Origin: Gemmatimonas sp.
Lineage (GTDB): Bacteria > Gemmatimonadota > Gemmatimonadetes > Gemmatimonadales > Gemmatimonadaceae
DNA length: 64,000 bases
Direction of reading: 5' to 3'
NCBI RefSeq assembly: GCF_027531815.1
Contig: NZ_JAPZSK010000006.1
Coordinates: forward strand, 186,001-250,000
Both the position numbers and the translations under genes were made by a program. Shown piece by piece: positions 43,091 to 49,635 of the stretch (position 1 is its first letter; each line of letters opens with the position of its first letter). Below the pieces are notes generated by a model that saw only the letters and a list, made by a program, of their open reading frames with translations, did not search any database and had not been told where the DNA came from.

Positions 43091-44308
43091 CTACGGGATC
43101 GATTGCCCCCGCACCGCCGGATTGGCCTCGGGCCTGAGCCGCGCCGCCGCGACCGCTTTCACCGGCCGCTCGAAGGTGTCGAGAGACGGACCGAGTGTGG
43201 GTTCGCACACGCCTTCGGCGGTCTCGCGGATGAGCTGGTCTACCACGGCGCGAAGGTCTCCGGTGCGTGCATAGGTGGCCAACTGCCGCTGTGCGCTCGA
43301 CCCCTCCTCCATGATGCGGAAGGCATACTCGACTTCCTTGCGGGTACCGAGCTCATCGAGCACGTCATCCAGGAACCACTCGATGAGCTCACGAATGAGC
43401 ACCGGCGCCTCGAGCTCCGTCTTCTTGCCGAAGTCGATGAGCTTGCCACCCAGCCCGTAGCGCACGGCGCGCCACTTGTTCTCCTCGATGAGGTCGGAGG
43501 CGTACACGCGGAACGTCATGTTGTCGCGGCGCAGCTTCCACATCTTGGCGACTACGGCCTGCAGCATGGCGGCGATGCACACCGCCTCGTCCACACGCGT
43601 GTTCACGTCGCAGACGCGGAACTCGAGCGTGGGGTAGAGATGGTGAGGGCGCACATCCCACCAGATCTTCGATCCGTTGGGAATGGAGCGCGTCTTGGTG
43701 AGCGTATCCACGAGGTCGGCGTAGTCGCTCCACCCATTGAGGATGCGCGGCACGCCGGTCCGCGGGAAGTTCTTGAAGACGATGCTGCGGTAGGAATGCA
43801 GCCCGGTGTTGCGCCCGAACCAGAACGGCGAGGAGGTGGATAGGCAGAGGATGTGCGGCAGGATGTAGCGGGCTGCGTTGAGGCAGTCGATGCGGAACTC
43901 CTGATCCTCGATCCCCACGTGCACGTGCGTGCCGAAGATCAGCAGCCGGTGCGCGAGATCCTGCAACTCCGCCTTTACGCCGAGGTATCGCTCCTTCGGC
44001 GTCATCTCCATGTTCATCCAGTTGGAGAAGGGGTGCGTTCCGGCCGAGGCGATGGTGAGACCGTGCTCGCCCGCGGCGCGGATGACCAGTCCGCGCAACT
44101 TCACCAGCTCGGTGCGCAGCTCGGCAATGGACGCGCACGGCTTGGTGCCGATCTCCACCTGGCACTGGTGCAGTTCGGCCTTGACGTCGGCTTCCGTCGC
44201 AAAGGCACTCTGCACCAGCGAATCGAAACCGGGCGACAGGTCGCGCGTGACCGGATCGATGATCTGGTACTCTTCCTCAATGCCGACCGTGAGGGTGGGT
44301 CCCTTCAT
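43091..44308 (-). CDS. YbdK/GCS2-family carboxylate-amine ligase
   Basis: A 405-residue enzyme of the glutamate-cysteine-ligase-2 (YbdK) family. The N-terminus TVGIEEEYQIIDPVTRDL holds the ATP/metal Glu cluster; further motifs are HQCQVEIGTKPC, SAGTHPFSNW, GTHVHVGIEDQEFRID and the C-terminal PTLEFRVCDVNTRVDEAV. Family members couple glutamate's gamma-carboxylate or a related acid to an amine; E. coli YbdK has weak glutamate-cysteine ligase activity. The start overlaps the C26 gene stop by four bases (ATGA). It ends the four-gene ligase cluster. The true substrate is unknown. Confidence 0.92.
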   Translation of the reverse strand: MKGPTLTVGIEEEYQIIDPVTRDLSPGFDSLVQSAFATEADVKAELHQCQVEIGTKPCASIAELRTELVKLRGLVIRAAGEHGLTIASAGTHPFSNWMNMEMTPKERYLGVKAELQDLAHRLLIFGTHVHVGIEDQEFRIDCLNAARYILPHILCLSTSSPFWFGRNTGLHSYRSIVFKNFPRTGVPRILNGWSDYADLVDTLTKTRSIPNGSKIWWDVRPHHLYPTLEFRVCDVNTRVDEAVCIAAMLQAVVAKMWKLRRDNMTFRVYASDLIEENKWRAVRYGLGGKLIDFGKKTELEAPVLIRELIEWFLDDVLDELGTRKEVEYAFRIMEEGSSAQRQLATYARTGDLRAVVDQLIRETAEGVCEPTLGPSLDTFERPVKAVAAARLRPEANPAVRGQSIP

Positions 44309-45126
44309 GGCGCCCCCACGCCCATGCGGGGCGCATGGGAAACGGGATTGTTGGCAGCCGCCCAGGTAGCCGCTGCGTCGATGAAGGCGCCGAACAGCTG
44401 CCGCGTATGTGGATCGCTCATTTCGAACACCTCCGGGTGCCATTGCACCCCCATGCAGAATCCATCGGTCTGCCCTTCGATCGCCTCAATGAGCCCATCG
44501 TCGGCGGTGGCGGATACCAGCAGGTCGCGGCCGAGCGTCTTGATTCCCTGATGGTGCATGCTGTTCACCGGGCAGCGGACGCAGTTGAGCATCTGCGCCA
44601 ACCGACTCCCCTCCACCACGGTCACCTCGTGCGCGATATGGTCGCGCTCGAAGCCGGCGGTGGGGAAGAAATCGTGCTTGTGGAAGGTGGAGTTTTGTGA
44701 TGCCAGGTCCTGCCACATGGTCCCGCCCTGCGACACGTTGATGATCTGCAGGCCGCGGCAGAGGCCGAGTACCGGCTTGCCCTCAGCGATGGCCCAGCGC
44801 ACCAGCTGCAGTTCCACGAGGTCACGGGCGGGGTCGAGATTTCCACACTCCGGGCGCACCGACTCGCCGTACTCGGCGGGGTTGATATCCACGCCGCCGG
44901 GGATGAGCACCCCGTCGAGGCGCTCGTAGATGGCCCGCAGCGTGGGGAGATCGTCGTCGAGCAGCGGGATCATCCACGGCACGGCGCCGGCCGCCGTGGC
45001 CGCGTGGAAGTACCGCTGATTCATGACCCAGCTGGAGGGGAGCGCCGGCGGGATGCCATCTATTGAATGCAGCGTCTGCGTCGTCAGCCCGATCGTGGGG
45101 CGGTACGAGGGAAAATCAGCGGACAT
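44305..45126 (-). CDS. C26-family glutamine amidotransferase-like hydrolase (PuuD-like)
   Basis: A 273-residue class I glutamine amidotransferase-fold protein of the gamma-glutamyl-gamma-aminobutyrate hydrolase group. Catalytic Cys lies in LGLCRGLQIINV; His and Glu are in GVQWHPEVFE. GVLIPGGVDINPAEYGE matches the family. Such enzymes cleave gamma-glutamyl amides or supply ammonia from Gln. The ATG shares one base with the upstream ATP-grasp stop and overlaps the YbdK-like gene at its end. Inside this cluster it may remove a gamma-glutamyl cap placed by the GCS2 ligase; that role is inferred. Confidence 0.93.
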   Translation of the reverse strand: MSADFPSYRPTIGLTTQTLHSIDGIPPALPSSWVMNQRYFHAATAAGAVPWMIPLLDDDLPTLRAIYERLDGVLIPGGVDINPAEYGESVRPECGNLDPARDLVELQLVRWAIAEGKPVLGLCRGLQIINVSQGGTMWQDLASQNSTFHKHDFFPTAGFERDHIAHEVTVVEGSRLAQMLNCVRCPVNSMHHQGIKTLGRDLLVSATADDGLIEAIEGQTDGFCMGVQWHPEVFEMSDPHTRQLFGAFIDAAATWAAANNPVSHAPRMGVGAP

Positions 45127-46499
45127 CAGCGCGACTCGACCAGGAATGTGGGGACGTTCGAACCTCCCCCCGCCGTGACGTTGAGGAGCGGATCCGTGGC
45201 AATGCGGGTCAGGCACCCGTTCACCGTGGTGCCGTTGGCGAGGAACGGCGCCGTGTCGAGCATGCGCTCGCCAATGTGCAGCGCTCCCTCCACCATCGCC
45301 GGCCACAGTTCGCTGGGTACCTCCACCCGCTCCTGCACGATATACGGCTCAGCAAGGGCTGTCTCGATGGCCCGTTGCCAGGTGGCATCATCCACGGTCC
45401 AGCCCAGCACAATGCCCTTGCCGCCGTACTCATCGTTGGGTTTGAGGACCATCGACTCCCGCCGTGTCGCGATGAACGGGAGCAAATCGACGGTGTGCTC
45501 CCCCCCCGCACTGTCGCGATACTGCGTGTGTCGCGCCTCCACCACACGGGTCCACGGCACATGGGCCTGCACCGCGGCGTGCTCGTCGGCGGAGAACAGC
45601 TGAGCCTGGCGCTCATCACTTAACACAGCGAGTGAGGCCTTTTTATGCAAAAGCTTGCAGCGAAACGGGTTGACCATGCACACCGCACGCGCTCTCACCG
45701 CCTGAACGACTGGTGAATCGAGGCCACATCGGGTAACGAGCTCGTCAATGAGGACGCGCTTGTATATGAACGTGACCGGCCGGCCGGCAACCGTGAGCTG
45801 CCCATTTCGATACTCCGCTTCACGCGGATCACCGATGAAGACCGGAATCCCCCGCGCCTGCAACTCCCGCTCGAAGAGCACGAATTCGCTGTAGGTGGGG
45901 ACATCGCGCCAATCCAGAATGCACACCTGCGGGAGCTCCTTGGTGCCCCGCCATTCTCCCCAGGCCTGCAGCAGCGCATCCACCACCCCCGCGGCAGCGG
46001 GAATGGGGAGCACGATGTGCTCGCGGGTGAACGCCTGCATCCCGGGCAGTGCCAGGAAGGCGCGCGAAAGCGCATCGTTGTACGCCGCGCCGGCCGGCGT
46101 CTCGGCGTTGTACTCGGTGAACTTGAGGCCGGTTGGGCCCGCCCCGGACACAAAGAACGCGTCCAGGCGCGAAGTGGGACTGGCCGTCCGGAACCCCGGA
46201 TCGGCATGAATCACCTGCTCCTCCCAGCTGGTCAGGCCGAACTGCGCCCGCAGCCCCGCGTCAGCCATGGCCGCCAAACGCACCTTCTCGAACGCCGATC
46301 CCACCAACGCGCAGGCCTTCCCCAGCAACCGATACTCAGCGAGCGACAGGAAACGCGGCCGCAGCACGCCGCACAGGGGCCGCTCGCCAAAAAAGAGCCC
46401 CTGGTCACGAAGCTGCTGTATCAACACGGCTGCGGAATCGGCCGCGAGCGAGCCGGTAGCGAGCGTGTCGTGGTAGCGGGCGACAGTTGCCGTGGACAT
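45126..46499 (-). CDS. Circularly permuted ATP-grasp ligase
   Basis: A 457-residue predicted amide-bond ligase. The usual last ATP-grasp element, the metal-binding acidic/Asn motif, appears early as FTEYNAETPAG (near residue 128), while the ATP-binding lysine loop MVLKPNDEYGGKGIVLGW and YIVQERVEV come late (about 350-400). This order marks the circularly permuted ATP-grasp group. The C-terminus HIGERMLD...NVTAGGGSNVPTFLV is compatible. It follows the first ATP-grasp gene by 2 bases and shares one base with the C26 gene. The substrates are unknown; the fold forms peptide, amide or ester bonds using acyl phosphate. Confidence 0.82.
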   Translation of the reverse strand: MSTATVARYHDTLATGSLAADSAAVLIQQLRDQGLFFGERPLCGVLRPRFLSLAEYRLLGKACALVGSAFEKVRLAAMADAGLRAQFGLTSWEEQVIHADPGFRTASPTSRLDAFFVSGAGPTGLKFTEYNAETPAGAAYNDALSRAFLALPGMQAFTREHIVLPIPAAAGVVDALLQAWGEWRGTKELPQVCILDWRDVPTYSEFVLFERELQARGIPVFIGDPREAEYRNGQLTVAGRPVTFIYKRVLIDELVTRCGLDSPVVQAVRARAVCMVNPFRCKLLHKKASLAVLSDERQAQLFSADEHAAVQAHVPWTRVVEARHTQYRDSAGGEHTVDLLPFIATRRESMVLKPNDEYGGKGIVLGWTVDDATWQRAIETALAEPYIVQERVEVPSELWPAMVEGALHIGERMLDTAPFLANGTTVNGCLTRIATDPLLNVTAGGGSNVPTFLVESR

Positions 46500-46501
46500 C
46501 G

Positions 46502-47512
46502 CTATTTCGTGATCAGCGACGACGTGGACGCGGACACGCCGGGGGCAGACGTTGCCTGCCCGGACGATGGCGCCGGCGGTGCGCCGATGATGGGAACGGC
46601 CCCGTCGCCGGTGGCGAGAACGGGGCGCGGCGCCGTGGCCAGGCGGATTGCCAGGTCGGCCATATGCTCCACCACCCAGTCGAAGTAGCTCGGGGTGAGC
46701 GAGTTGATGTCCATGTCCGGCGCCGGATTCATGAAGTCGATCGCGTAGGGAATGCCGTCCTTCACGGCGAACTCGACCGTGTTCATGTCATAACCCAGCG
46801 CCCGGCACAGGGTGAGGGCGTCGCGCACGCACCGATCCTCCAACGCCTTGCCCAGATATCCCGGGTCAGGGATGTAACGACGCTGCCCAGGATCGTAGGG
46901 CATGGGAAGCACGTATTCACGCCCCAAGACCATGCAGCGGACGTAGGCGTCCCACTTCACGAACTCCTGGACCACCATGGTCAACAGCCCGCTGCTGTTG
47001 TAGTGCTGCAGCAGTTCTTCCATGGAATGGCACACGTACACGTCACGCCACCCGCCGCCGTGCGCATCCTTGAGCACACAGGGAAAGCCGATGTGCTCGG
47101 CCACGCCGCGCCAGTCGAGGGGGTACGACAGGTTGCGCAGCGATTCGGTATGGGAGATCCCGGGGATGTAGTCCTTGTTGGGGAGGACCATCGTCTTCGG
47201 GTGGGCGACCCCGTTCTGGATGGCCAGCGTGGCATCGTAGAACTTGTCGTCGGCCGACCACATGAACGGGTTGTTCACCACCGTCACCCCCATGCGCGTG
47301 GCATGCTTGAGGAAGGTGCGGTAGAAGCCCACTTCGTGGCTGATGCGGTCAATGATGAGCGTGTACGGCACGGGCTGCCCCATGCGCGTCGCGTCGAGCT
47401 TGATGTAGTCGGCCGACACGCCGCTCTGGCGACGGTTGACGGCGTCGAGAAACGCCGGCGGGAACGACCATTCCCGGCCGACGAGCAATCCAATGCGCGG
47501 TTCGATGGACAC
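46502..47512 (-). CDS. ATP-grasp (RimK-like) ligase
   Basis: A 336-residue ATP-grasp protein, first gene of the cluster. The GTG start is chosen because GGAG lies 8 bases upstream (47521-47524) and the family-like opening IEPRIGLLVGREWSFPPAF follows; a GTG 13 codons earlier is less likely. The ATP loop FPCVLKDAHGGGWRDVYV, the hinge VVQEFVKWDAYVR and the metal site VEFAVKDGIPYAIDFMNPAPD are intact. The last 40 residues are Ala/Pro/Ser-rich and likely disordered. The family resembles predicted ligases that act on hydroxy-acid or amino-acid substrates. The next gene is 2 bases away. Confidence 0.85.
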   Translation of the reverse strand: MSIEPRIGLLVGREWSFPPAFLDAVNRRQSGVSADYIKLDATRMGQPVPYTLIIDRISHEVGFYRTFLKHATRMGVTVVNNPFMWSADDKFYDATLAIQNGVAHPKTMVLPNKDYIPGISHTESLRNLSYPLDWRGVAEHIGFPCVLKDAHGGGWRDVYVCHSMEELLQHYNSSGLLTMVVQEFVKWDAYVRCMVLGREYVLPMPYDPGQRRYIPDPGYLGKALEDRCVRDALTLCRALGYDMNTVEFAVKDGIPYAIDFMNPAPDMDINSLTPSYFDWVVEHMADLAIRLATAPRPVLATGDGAVPIIGAPPAPSSGQATSAPGVSASTSSLITK

Positions 47513-47769
47513 GATGATGGCTCCAATGGCAAGACGGGTGAGTATCGCCACTATGGGGACTTGCCCGTCCGTCCGCCAGCAGCGCGGACGGTGCAGCCTG
47601 ATCCCGGCGCATGCTGTGACAAAGGCTGTGCGAGGCTATTCCCGGCGGTCCGAACGCGGCAGGTGAGCGAACTCGACCGTTACGCCACTGGCCAGGACTG
47701 GTGCAGTCCGCTGCCTCGGAAAGCCTGTGTTGGCAAACAAGGAAAGAGCAGTTTTGTGAGCAACTGCCG
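47513..47769. other. Intergenic sequence upstream of the ATP-grasp cluster
   Basis: Non-coding on both strands as far as I can judge. It should hold the cluster's minus-strand promoter, which I could not place. The part near 47725-47780 is visibly more AT-rich than the surrounding DNA and leads into the DnaA-box cluster. Confidence 0.4.
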
Positions 47770-47895
47770 TGTGGACAAATCACCCCCTGCCGCCCGAAAA
47801 CGGCAGGGCATCACGAAGCCGTTTATCCACAGGGGGGCTGGGCGCAGGTGCGGTCCCAAACGCCACTTACGTGGTTTTCCACACGCTTTCCCACA
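47770..47895. other. Cluster of four DnaA-box-like sites, oriC-like
   Basis: Within 126 bases lie one perfect consensus box TTATCCACA (47823-47831), TTTTCCACA (47875-47883, one mismatch), TTTCCCACA (47887-47895, two mismatches) and TGTGGACAA (47770-47778; TTGTCCACA on the other strand, one mismatch). A hairpin CCCTGCCG-N8-CGGCAGGG lies between them (47785-47808). The preceding 50 bases are AT-rich for this genome, and the flanking genes diverge. These traits fit a replication origin or another DnaA-binding locus such as a titration site. No dnaA, dnaN, gidA or parAB is in the window, which argues for caution. Confidence 0.5.
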
Positions 47896-48040
47896 CATAT
47901 CTACAGTGCTGTCAACAACTTAGGAGGCAACCAGCGTATTGCGTGGGCGCCTGGATCGTCATAACATCCCCGCCCATCGACGACGCGATTCACTTCGGGA
48001 AATCGGTGGTCACGTTCCTGCCCCCTCACGGAATAGAGCT

Positions 48041-48445
48041 ATGCACGTCGTCGCCATTGACGCGCCAATCGGTCCGATGGAGCTCGCGCCCATCACAAGC
48101 CTGCCAATCCACACGGAAGTGCGTGCGGACCGAATCAGTGCGTTCTGGACGGATGATGACCGCTACGTAGTGCGATCGGAGGGCGACCATGGCGTCGCCT
48201 GGTATCGCATCGACGCCGAACAGGAGACGGACGTGGAGGCTGCCATGGCGGCCTCCCTCGAGGCCCGGCGCGCCCTTGGCGCCCTCATGGCCGACATCAT
48301 CCCCCTGGGTGGGGGGCGCGTGGCGTTTCCGGTGGGCAGCACCGGTCGTCGCGTGTATCGGGTCTGGCGTGCCGCCAAGGGCGGCACCGCGCGGACTAGA
48401 ATCCTGGGAGTTCGAGCTGCGCGGTCACGCCGCCTGCCAGCGTAA
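48041..48445 (+). CDS. Unrecognised 134-residue protein
   Basis: An open frame beginning MHVVAIDAPIGPMELAP with mixed alpha/beta composition, an acidic centre (EQETDVEAAMAASLEARRALG) and a basic tail. I do not recognise the family. A longer version from a TTG at 47939, preceded by AGGAGG at 47922-47927, adds 34 residues that look non-coding; the ATG is preferred but its ribosome binding site is weak. Its end overlaps the convergent gene's end by 50 bases. Confidence 0.5.
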   Translation: MHVVAIDAPIGPMELAPITSLPIHTEVRADRISAFWTDDDRYVVRSEGDHGVAWYRIDAEQETDVEAAMAASLEARRALGALMADIIPLGGGRVAFPVGSTGRRVYRVWRAAKGGTARTRILGVRAARSRRLPA

Positions 48446-49337
48446 CGCCGGCAGCCTGCAACCACGCCAGCAGTACGTCCTGCCCATGATCGCCTGCCAT
48501 CGCCGAGCGGGCTGCACTGAGATGCAGCTTGAACTCGGCACTCACATCGGGAAGCGTCCGTCTCAGCACCGCCACCGTGAGCAGCTCGGTGGCGTCGGCC
48601 AGATGCCGGATGGCGAACTCCGTCATGCGCGCGCGCAGCGCCGCCGCATTGTGCACCGGTCCGTCGCCGGGCACCTCGTGGTCGGCCCGGCGCTCGCGGA
48701 ATGCGGCCAGCCTGGAACGGGTGGCGGAGAGCATGGGCAGCTCATCGCCGGCGTTATCGGGGAGCACGGCGACGGGCGCCCCCATGAGGCCCAGCCAGGC
48801 CATCCAGAGGGTGCCACGGGCGTACGGCTCCCACGGCTCGTGCTCGAGCCGGTGCGCCAGACGCTTCACCGTATCGGCAATGTGCGCCCGGGCTTCCCAC
48901 CAGCGCACGTAGGCATCGGTCTGGCGGCTGACCAGCGCCAGGGCGCCCAGCTTGAGCGCCCACTTGACGGCGGATTCGCCGTCGTCGAGCGGCGGGCGCA
49001 GGGCGGCGGCGCACCGAAAGGCGCGAGCCGCTCCCAGCGCCAGTACGGCCTGTGCCAGATCCCTGGCCGCACTGGGGGTGGGCTGCAGAGCGGCGTCGAG
49101 TTGGCCGAGGGCGGCGAGTTCGTAGGCGGTGCCCAGCAGGGCCAGCCCGTCGGCAATCGGCTCGCCGAGTCCGTCGCCGTCGCGCAATGCCGCCGCGTCG
49201 GCGCGCTCCAGCAGCAGCGCGCGGCGTTCGGCGGGAATGGCGGCGACGGCCCAATGCTCATCGAGCGTGGTCCGGGCCAGTTCGGCCAGGGCCCGCGCGG
49301 CGAGGTCACGATCTGCGGCCGGGGTGAGGACGGGCAT
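48396..49337 (-). CDS. Unrecognised 313-residue alpha-helical protein
   Basis: The frame starting MPVLTPAADRDLAARALAELARTTLDEHW is Ala/Leu-rich and predicted mostly helical, with Trp-rich positions (RWWEARAHIAD, EPWEPYARGTLWMAWLGLMG). No signal peptide, membrane segment or known motif was found. The other frames across the region are Arg/Pro-rich shadows. The ATG is chosen because the longer upstream reading passes through Arg/Cys-rich non-coding-like sequence. It overlaps the convergent gene at 48041-48445 tail to tail and diverges from the gene at 49636. Confidence 0.6.
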   Translation of the reverse strand: MPVLTPAADRDLAARALAELARTTLDEHWAVAAIPAERRALLLERADAAALRDGDGLGEPIADGLALLGTAYELAALGQLDAALQPTPSAARDLAQAVLALGAARAFRCAAALRPPLDDGESAVKWALKLGALALVSRQTDAYVRWWEARAHIADTVKRLAHRLEHEPWEPYARGTLWMAWLGLMGAPVAVLPDNAGDELPMLSATRSRLAAFRERRADHEVPGDGPVHNAAALRARMTEFAIRHLADATELLTVAVLRRTLPDVSAEFKLHLSAARSAMAGDHGQDVLLAWLQAAGVTLAGGVTAQLELPGF

Positions 49338-49635
49338 CCAGCCTCCGTAAGGGGAGAGCTCGAACGGGGTCCTGCGGGGAAGCGAGCACGAACACCGTAG
49401 CGACCAGCCGGTCGCTGCGGACTGCGTACGACGGCCGCGCGACCAGAATCGGGAACGCGGCCGGCACCACCGAAACACCAGCACCAACCAACGCACCAGC
49501 AGCAGCATGCGGCTCAGCCGCACGCTGTGCATCGCCATCACTGTCGCATTTATGTAACAGCTCGGCGTCTGTCAAGGGTACTGTCGCGATTCTGTCCGCA
49601 GCAGCCCAGCCAGCCGCCCTCTCCGAGGAAGTCGC
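49338..49635. other. Divergent intergenic region, promoters not resolved
   Basis: This 298-base gap separates two divergent unrecognised genes. Its right half (about 49535-49600) is locally AT-richer (GTCGCATTTATGTAACAG) and probably contains the promoters. No hairpin, operator or ORF could be supported. Confidence 0.35.

Follow-up and report, generated by a model that had tools for sequence, protein, structure and literature searches.

A DnaA-box element of almost fixed geometry, predicted to regulate a promoter-like site, in Gemmatimonas and related Gemmatimonadaceae

First-pass annotation of a 64,000-nucleotide stretch of Gemmatimonas sp. DNA (the window; positions 186001-250000 of contig C6 in a 27-contig draft genome of 4.3 Mb) picked out a group of DnaA boxes between two divergent genes, and raised the question of whether this is a replication origin or a site that titrates DnaA. 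No published report of such a locus was found for Gemmatimonas or Gemmatimonadota, in a literature coverage that lacks most subscription papers. The cluster is part of an element of about 240 bp, 47727-47967, whose geometry is almost fixed; further conserved motifs on both sides of the boxes, and a promoter-like site reaching to 47967, had been overlooked. The components and the adjoining genes, numbered by their positions in the window, are as follows.

47727-47740, no strand assigned: outer motif GTGTKRGCAAACAA (reverse TTGTTTGCCAACAC), a conserved imperfect palindrome defined by alignment columns, also found upstream of dnaA
47748-47759, no strand assigned: conserved GCA-TTTTGTGA motif; 47756-47759 invariant, 47753-47755 conserved in 26 of 27 rows
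47770-47778, reverse strand (inverted): DnaA box 1, TTGTCCACA, one mismatch; every letter except one invariant across all 27 rows
47785-47808, no strand assigned: hairpin CCCTGCCG/CGGCAGGG, present in the window genome, unconserved
47823-47831, forward strand: DnaA box 2, TTATCCACA, no mismatches; 53 bp from box 1
47865-47869, forward strand: ACTTA, a conserved motif starting 10 bp ahead of box 3
47875-47883, forward strand: DnaA box 3, TTTTCCACA, one mismatch; 105 bp from box 1, opening a tight head-to-tail array
47887-47895, forward strand: weak DnaA-like 9-mer, TTTCCCACA in the window genome, two mismatches; 12 bp after box 3 (alignment columns)
47897-47905, forward strand: DnaA-like 9-mer, ATATCTACA in the window genome, commonest form ATATCCACA; 22 bp after box 3 (alignment columns)
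47909-47917, forward strand: weak DnaA-like 9-mer, CTGTCAACA in the window genome; 34 bp after box 3 (alignment columns)
47914-47923, forward strand: AACAACTTAG, strongly conserved in the alignment columns; family-wide form CAAC[AG]ACTTA
47938-47967, forward strand: promoter-like site recognised by conservation; -35 TTGCGT at 47940-47945, about 17 bp, -10 TAACAT at about 47962-47967
48041-48445, forward strand: gene for a 134-aa protein, under purifying selection, no Pfam family above cut-off
48396-49370, reverse strand: convergent neighbour gene without a Pfam match, accompanying the element across the family and overlapping the 3′ end of the 134-aa gene

The boxes themselves are borne out, three with no more than one mismatch falling within 114 bp, as is their setting in a gap between divergent genes, with an ATP-grasp-like gene starting at 47551 (reverse strand) and the 134-aa reading frame at 48041 (forward strand). 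The grouping had been judged unlikely to arise by chance, which is true of the clustering (three boxes within 126 bp in 0 of 400 simulated Markov-1 windows, two boxes in 14 of the 400) but not of the number of boxes with up to one mismatch in the 64-kb window, which is ordinary (4 observed against 3.02 expected). Genome-wide, the pattern TCCACA-N25-55-TTNTCCACA occurs once, at the element. There are eleven TTWTCCACA sites in the genome, two of them the element's and one at dnaA; at none of five further sites inspected, a check that set aside three sites on C6, is there a cluster, and most of these lie inside long open frames.

To describe the geometry, the upstream regions of the 134-aa gene were compared among the 30 loci recovered by a search of relatives; L240 has no upstream sequence, and the other 29 were aligned. 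The spacing of boxes 1 and 2 is 53 bp in all 29 loci, and that of boxes 1 and 3 is 105 bp in 27, with single loci at 104 and 106 bp. Column statistics, taken over 27 rows (L228 and L241, whose lengths are off by one, were omitted), show near-invariant motifs separated by columns near background. The motifs follow in the order GTGTKRGCAAACAA, GCA-TTTTGTGA, box 1, box 2, ACTTA, box 3 and the three weaker 9-mers (+12, +22 and +34 from box 3), after which come AACAACTTAG and the promoter-like pair. Constant length combined with free sequence between the motifs points to proteins sitting in register on the helix. We infer that DnaA is the protein at the boxes; the DnaA of the window genome has the standard DNA-binding domain (Pfam). 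It seems improbable that the TTNTCCACA sites are instead bound by some other protein, a reading that could appeal to the co-conserved motifs, which have no assigned binder: in the alignment columns the 9-mers agree with the DnaA consensus, position 3 being their main point of variation, and upstream of dnaA this 9-mer is fixed as well.

A hairpin had also been reported next to the boxes. It exists in the window genome, but it is not conserved, since at least seven of its eight pairs form in only 3 of 29 rows, and 44% of cells pair across the arms, compared with 29–44% when the arms are slid (29 rows). Boxes 1 and 2 are inverted with respect to one another and able to pair (92% of cells), and the hairpin sits between them, so that a structured RNA or riboswitch can be drawn in which box 1 pairs with box 2 around an inner hairpin. 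There is next to no chance that this is correct: pairing between boxes 1 and 2 follows from their being copies of one motif, the promoter-like site is located downstream of the boxes, and a search of 47000-48600 against Rfam gave no match up to E = 1. With the hairpin unconserved and Rfam empty, the structured RNA was rejected.

Is the element the chromosomal origin? The first-pass annotation had proposed it as a candidate oriC, to be judged by GC skew and by whether a better box cluster lies near dnaA. Several features are consistent with an origin: the direct box pair is the only one in the genome by the pattern above, and the tight head-to-tail array resembles oriC. In addition, the T-A skew of C6 falls steadily and is then flat from about 230–250 kb (44–64 kb of the window), close to the element. 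Nor is there a better cluster near dnaA. Upstream of dnaA there is one conserved box in a promoter-like setting (TTATCCACA in 27 of 28 loci compared, TTGTCCACA in one; the shorter matches L216 and L217 were not used), and the start of the chromosome of the relative G020, from -77 to about +133 kb, has eight single boxes with up to one mismatch and no cluster.

GC skew speaks against the proposal. G020 is on one contig (4,636,964 bp) and was sampled in forty 20-kb stretches, then filled in around the skew extremes; its cumulative GC skew reaches its minimum about 3 to 45 kb past the record start, in the region of dnaA, and its maximum near 1.93 Mb. The element is at 1.6304-1.6307 Mb, with the skew maximum about 0.3 Mb beyond it; box cluster and skew minimum are thus separated by about 1.6 Mb, and no box cluster is found at the minimum. 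In the window genome, the GC skew of the dnaA contig (C17) switches sign near dnaA, and that of C6 shows no switch at the element. A second relative, G028, gave a skew that is weakly negative at 1.68–1.92 Mb, turns positive at 2.04 Mb and is negative again from 2.16 Mb, a profile from twenty 20-kb stretches that is too noisy to place the maximum and that neither supports nor contradicts G020. The published chromosome architecture of the phylum, with a ter region of high gene strand bias and the predicted ori opposite (PMC11237797, 2024, as far as its available text goes), also stands against an origin here; the word DnaA is absent from the main text of that paper in the part available. Finally, the DNA had been described as locally AT-richer, which is so only mildly (core GC 0.57 against mostly 0.64–0.71 across the window; 0.47 in G020), and the alignment columns contain no conserved AT-rich unwinding tract beside the boxes. 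Of the marks of an origin, then, the element has the DnaA-box cluster and lacks the GC-skew minimum and the AT-rich unwinding element. An oriC at this locus was rejected on the skew extremes of G020 and the absence of a switch in C6; the element is very probably not the origin, and we give an origin here only a slight chance. In the 0–45 kb skew minimum of G020 (L148, L248 and L249), and in L001 upstream of dnaA, an oriC is unrecognisable by standard boxes.

What the boxes do keep a nearly constant relation to is the promoter-like site. The register of the array continues, nearly constant in the alignment, into this site, which was identified through conservation and which fails a strict sigma-70 consensus scan, no promoter passing there. 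Spacing to the divergent ATP-grasp gene varies, box 1 beginning 119 bp away in L113 and 219 bp in L110 (both genes matched from residue 1), and distant relatives lack a box cluster upstream of that gene; regulation of the ATP-grasp gene as the main role was therefore rejected. The reverse-strand run of genes to which it belongs (43091-47551) encodes a GCS2 glutamate-cysteine ligase family protein, a peptidase C26 and two ATP-grasp-like proteins (below the Pfam cut-off), and is a possible peptide-ligation cluster.

The gene downstream of the promoter-like site is under purifying selection, with dN/dS of 0.12–0.37 over codons 1–118 (one of 21 pairs has no amino-acid change). Its product matched in Pfam only Acetyltransf_17, below the cut-off (E 0.0032), and gave a weak structure model (pLDDT 61.6) with which a search of the PDB found no match at E <= 0.001. 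Among the seven sequences compared the final 16 codons do not vary, silent sites included, and the roughly 50 bp over which the ends of the 134-aa and convergent genes overlap (48390-48445) are nearly invariant across the genus. The invariance is more simply explained by this overlap, the end of the convergent gene being itself conserved; an RNA gene at the 3′ end was considered and rejected, ARAGORN having found none.

The element is also present outside the genus. A model built from its sequence only (R1) matched 48 of 179 family genomes at E <= 0.1, leaving 131 without a match. The matches comprise 29 of 30 genomes of the genus (one split over two contigs), four in genus g24 over nearly the full length, and, in six other genera, 14 that cover part of the box 2-to-promoter half; one match, in G191 (E 0.0988), is no better than chance and was excluded from alignment A3. 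This core, box 2 to promoter, recurs in the other genera adjoining the same convergent gene, a relative of which is present at all 18 family loci outside the genus with a real match. The 134-aa gene was detected at 14 of these 18 loci and not at L312, L314, L318 and L321, where element, promoter-like site and convergent gene persist; either loss or divergence of the gene at these four loci, or an independent function of the element, would account for this. These counts make the locus an old one, in which the element persists better than the detectable gene. L317 (G038:C37:49500-61500) carries the element and the small gene in duplicate, the copies lying about 5.6 kb apart. A core model (R2), run on 395 genomes drawn from the phylum, matched 39 family genomes strongly and eight outside the family weakly (E 8e-5 to 0.0098). 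Inspected by eye, these eight weak matches are DnaA-like box arrays near other genes; at loci from other families (L357, L358, L359-L362 and L364) the neighbours, as read by eye from their first residues, include a NIF3-like gene and a sigma-70 factor, each with the array upstream, and Ku, adjacent, which is no more than suggestive.

DnaA also acts as a transcription factor, through several boxes directly upstream of the regulated promoter. The locus described here likewise has several boxes, upstream of a promoter-like site (47938-47967) for which it is probably a regulatory region bound by DnaA. The strong boxes 1, 2 and 3, roughly five helical turns apart (53 and 52 bp), would anchor DnaA on one face of the DNA, and from box 3 it would extend across the weaker 9-mers spaced 12, 10 and 12 bp, the array ending about 15–20 bp upstream of the -35. 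Bound in such an upstream position, DnaA would most likely activate transcription of the 134-aa gene, whose expression would follow the level or nucleotide state of DnaA and hence the replication cycle; both the sign of regulation and this role in the cell cycle are predictions from the arrangement of the sites. The element differs from known DnaA-regulated promoters in that some 240 bp of almost fixed geometry are kept across the genus and partly across the family, in having an uncharacterised target gene, and in lying near the terminus in G020. The array itself recalls the DnaA-oligomerisation regions of oriC, where a strong box is followed by weak head-to-tail sites: here a strong box 3 precedes weaker 9-mers in the same direction, 10–12 bp apart. 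Unlike those regions, the element lies at neither skew extreme of G020, has no conserved AT-rich unwinding element, and leads into a promoter-like site.

The main rival is a function like that of the E. coli DARS1, DARS2 and datA sites, in which the nucleoprotein complex would serve to convert or retain DnaA, with the promoter either secondary or a modulator of that complex. Like those sites, the element is non-coding, keeps its DnaA boxes in a conserved geometry and lies away from oriC, and its additional conserved motifs could bind architectural proteins. In E. coli, DARS cores contain three DnaA boxes, and their distances from oriC are conserved (PMC4585315, available part; the comparisons with E. 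coli draw also on the available part of PMC12371093). The element lies 35–39% of chromosome length from dnaA in three one-contig genomes (a figure derived from positions, with the length of G029 rounded, and measured from dnaA rather than from oriC), so that its position may be conserved in a similar way. The best support is that the element is retained at loci in which the 134-aa gene was not detected. Against this, a fixed register with one promoter is unexpected for a pure DnaA-cycling site, and none of the conserved motifs of the element has been assigned to IHF or Fis; the likeness drawn here is one of layout. The titration proposed at the outset is possible, but so few boxes make a weak sink, and the fixed register with the promoter points first to regulation. 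We consider a function of the DARS or datA kind unlikely as the primary one, though it could coexist with regulation of the promoter.

A further link, to dnaA, comes from the outer motif. In the 4.3 Mb genome there are two exact copies of TTGYTTGCCAACAC, one at the element's outer end and the other in the region upstream of dnaA (C17:67701), each conserved within its own alignment; reversed as a control it does not occur genome-wide, and one mismatch adds two places, at least one of which falls within a long open frame. The motif came to light through comparison of the element with the dnaA upstream region, which makes its rarity partly post hoc. A motif common to the element and the dnaA upstream region suggests a second, shared regulator. 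About 58 kb from the element, a reverse-strand gene (L002 259-1998, at about 174.5–176.2 kb of C6 in the window genome, G000) encodes a 579-aa protein with two tandem DnaA-type AAA+ domains, and neither the DNA-binding nor the N-terminal domain of DnaA among the Pfam matches listed; it adjoins a small GTPase-like gene (read by eye), and a second DnaA-like match of its kind is present in most of the genus. The protein is a candidate DnaA regulator, or something else.

The locus shows that a DnaA-box cluster alone is insufficient to call an origin. A more far-reaching proposal, which we regard as doubtful, is that it is a terminus-side DnaA control centre of the Gemmatimonadaceae, a rigid array feeding back both on DnaA activity and on its own promoter. 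If so, a site duplicated late in each round would share a second regulator with the dnaA upstream region, and the end of replication would be coupled to permission for the next round, in bacteria whose origin region is without an ordinary box cluster near dnaA. Most knowledge of DnaA control comes from a small number of model bacteria, and the array with its promoter-like site would offer a direct handle on it in a little-studied phylum.
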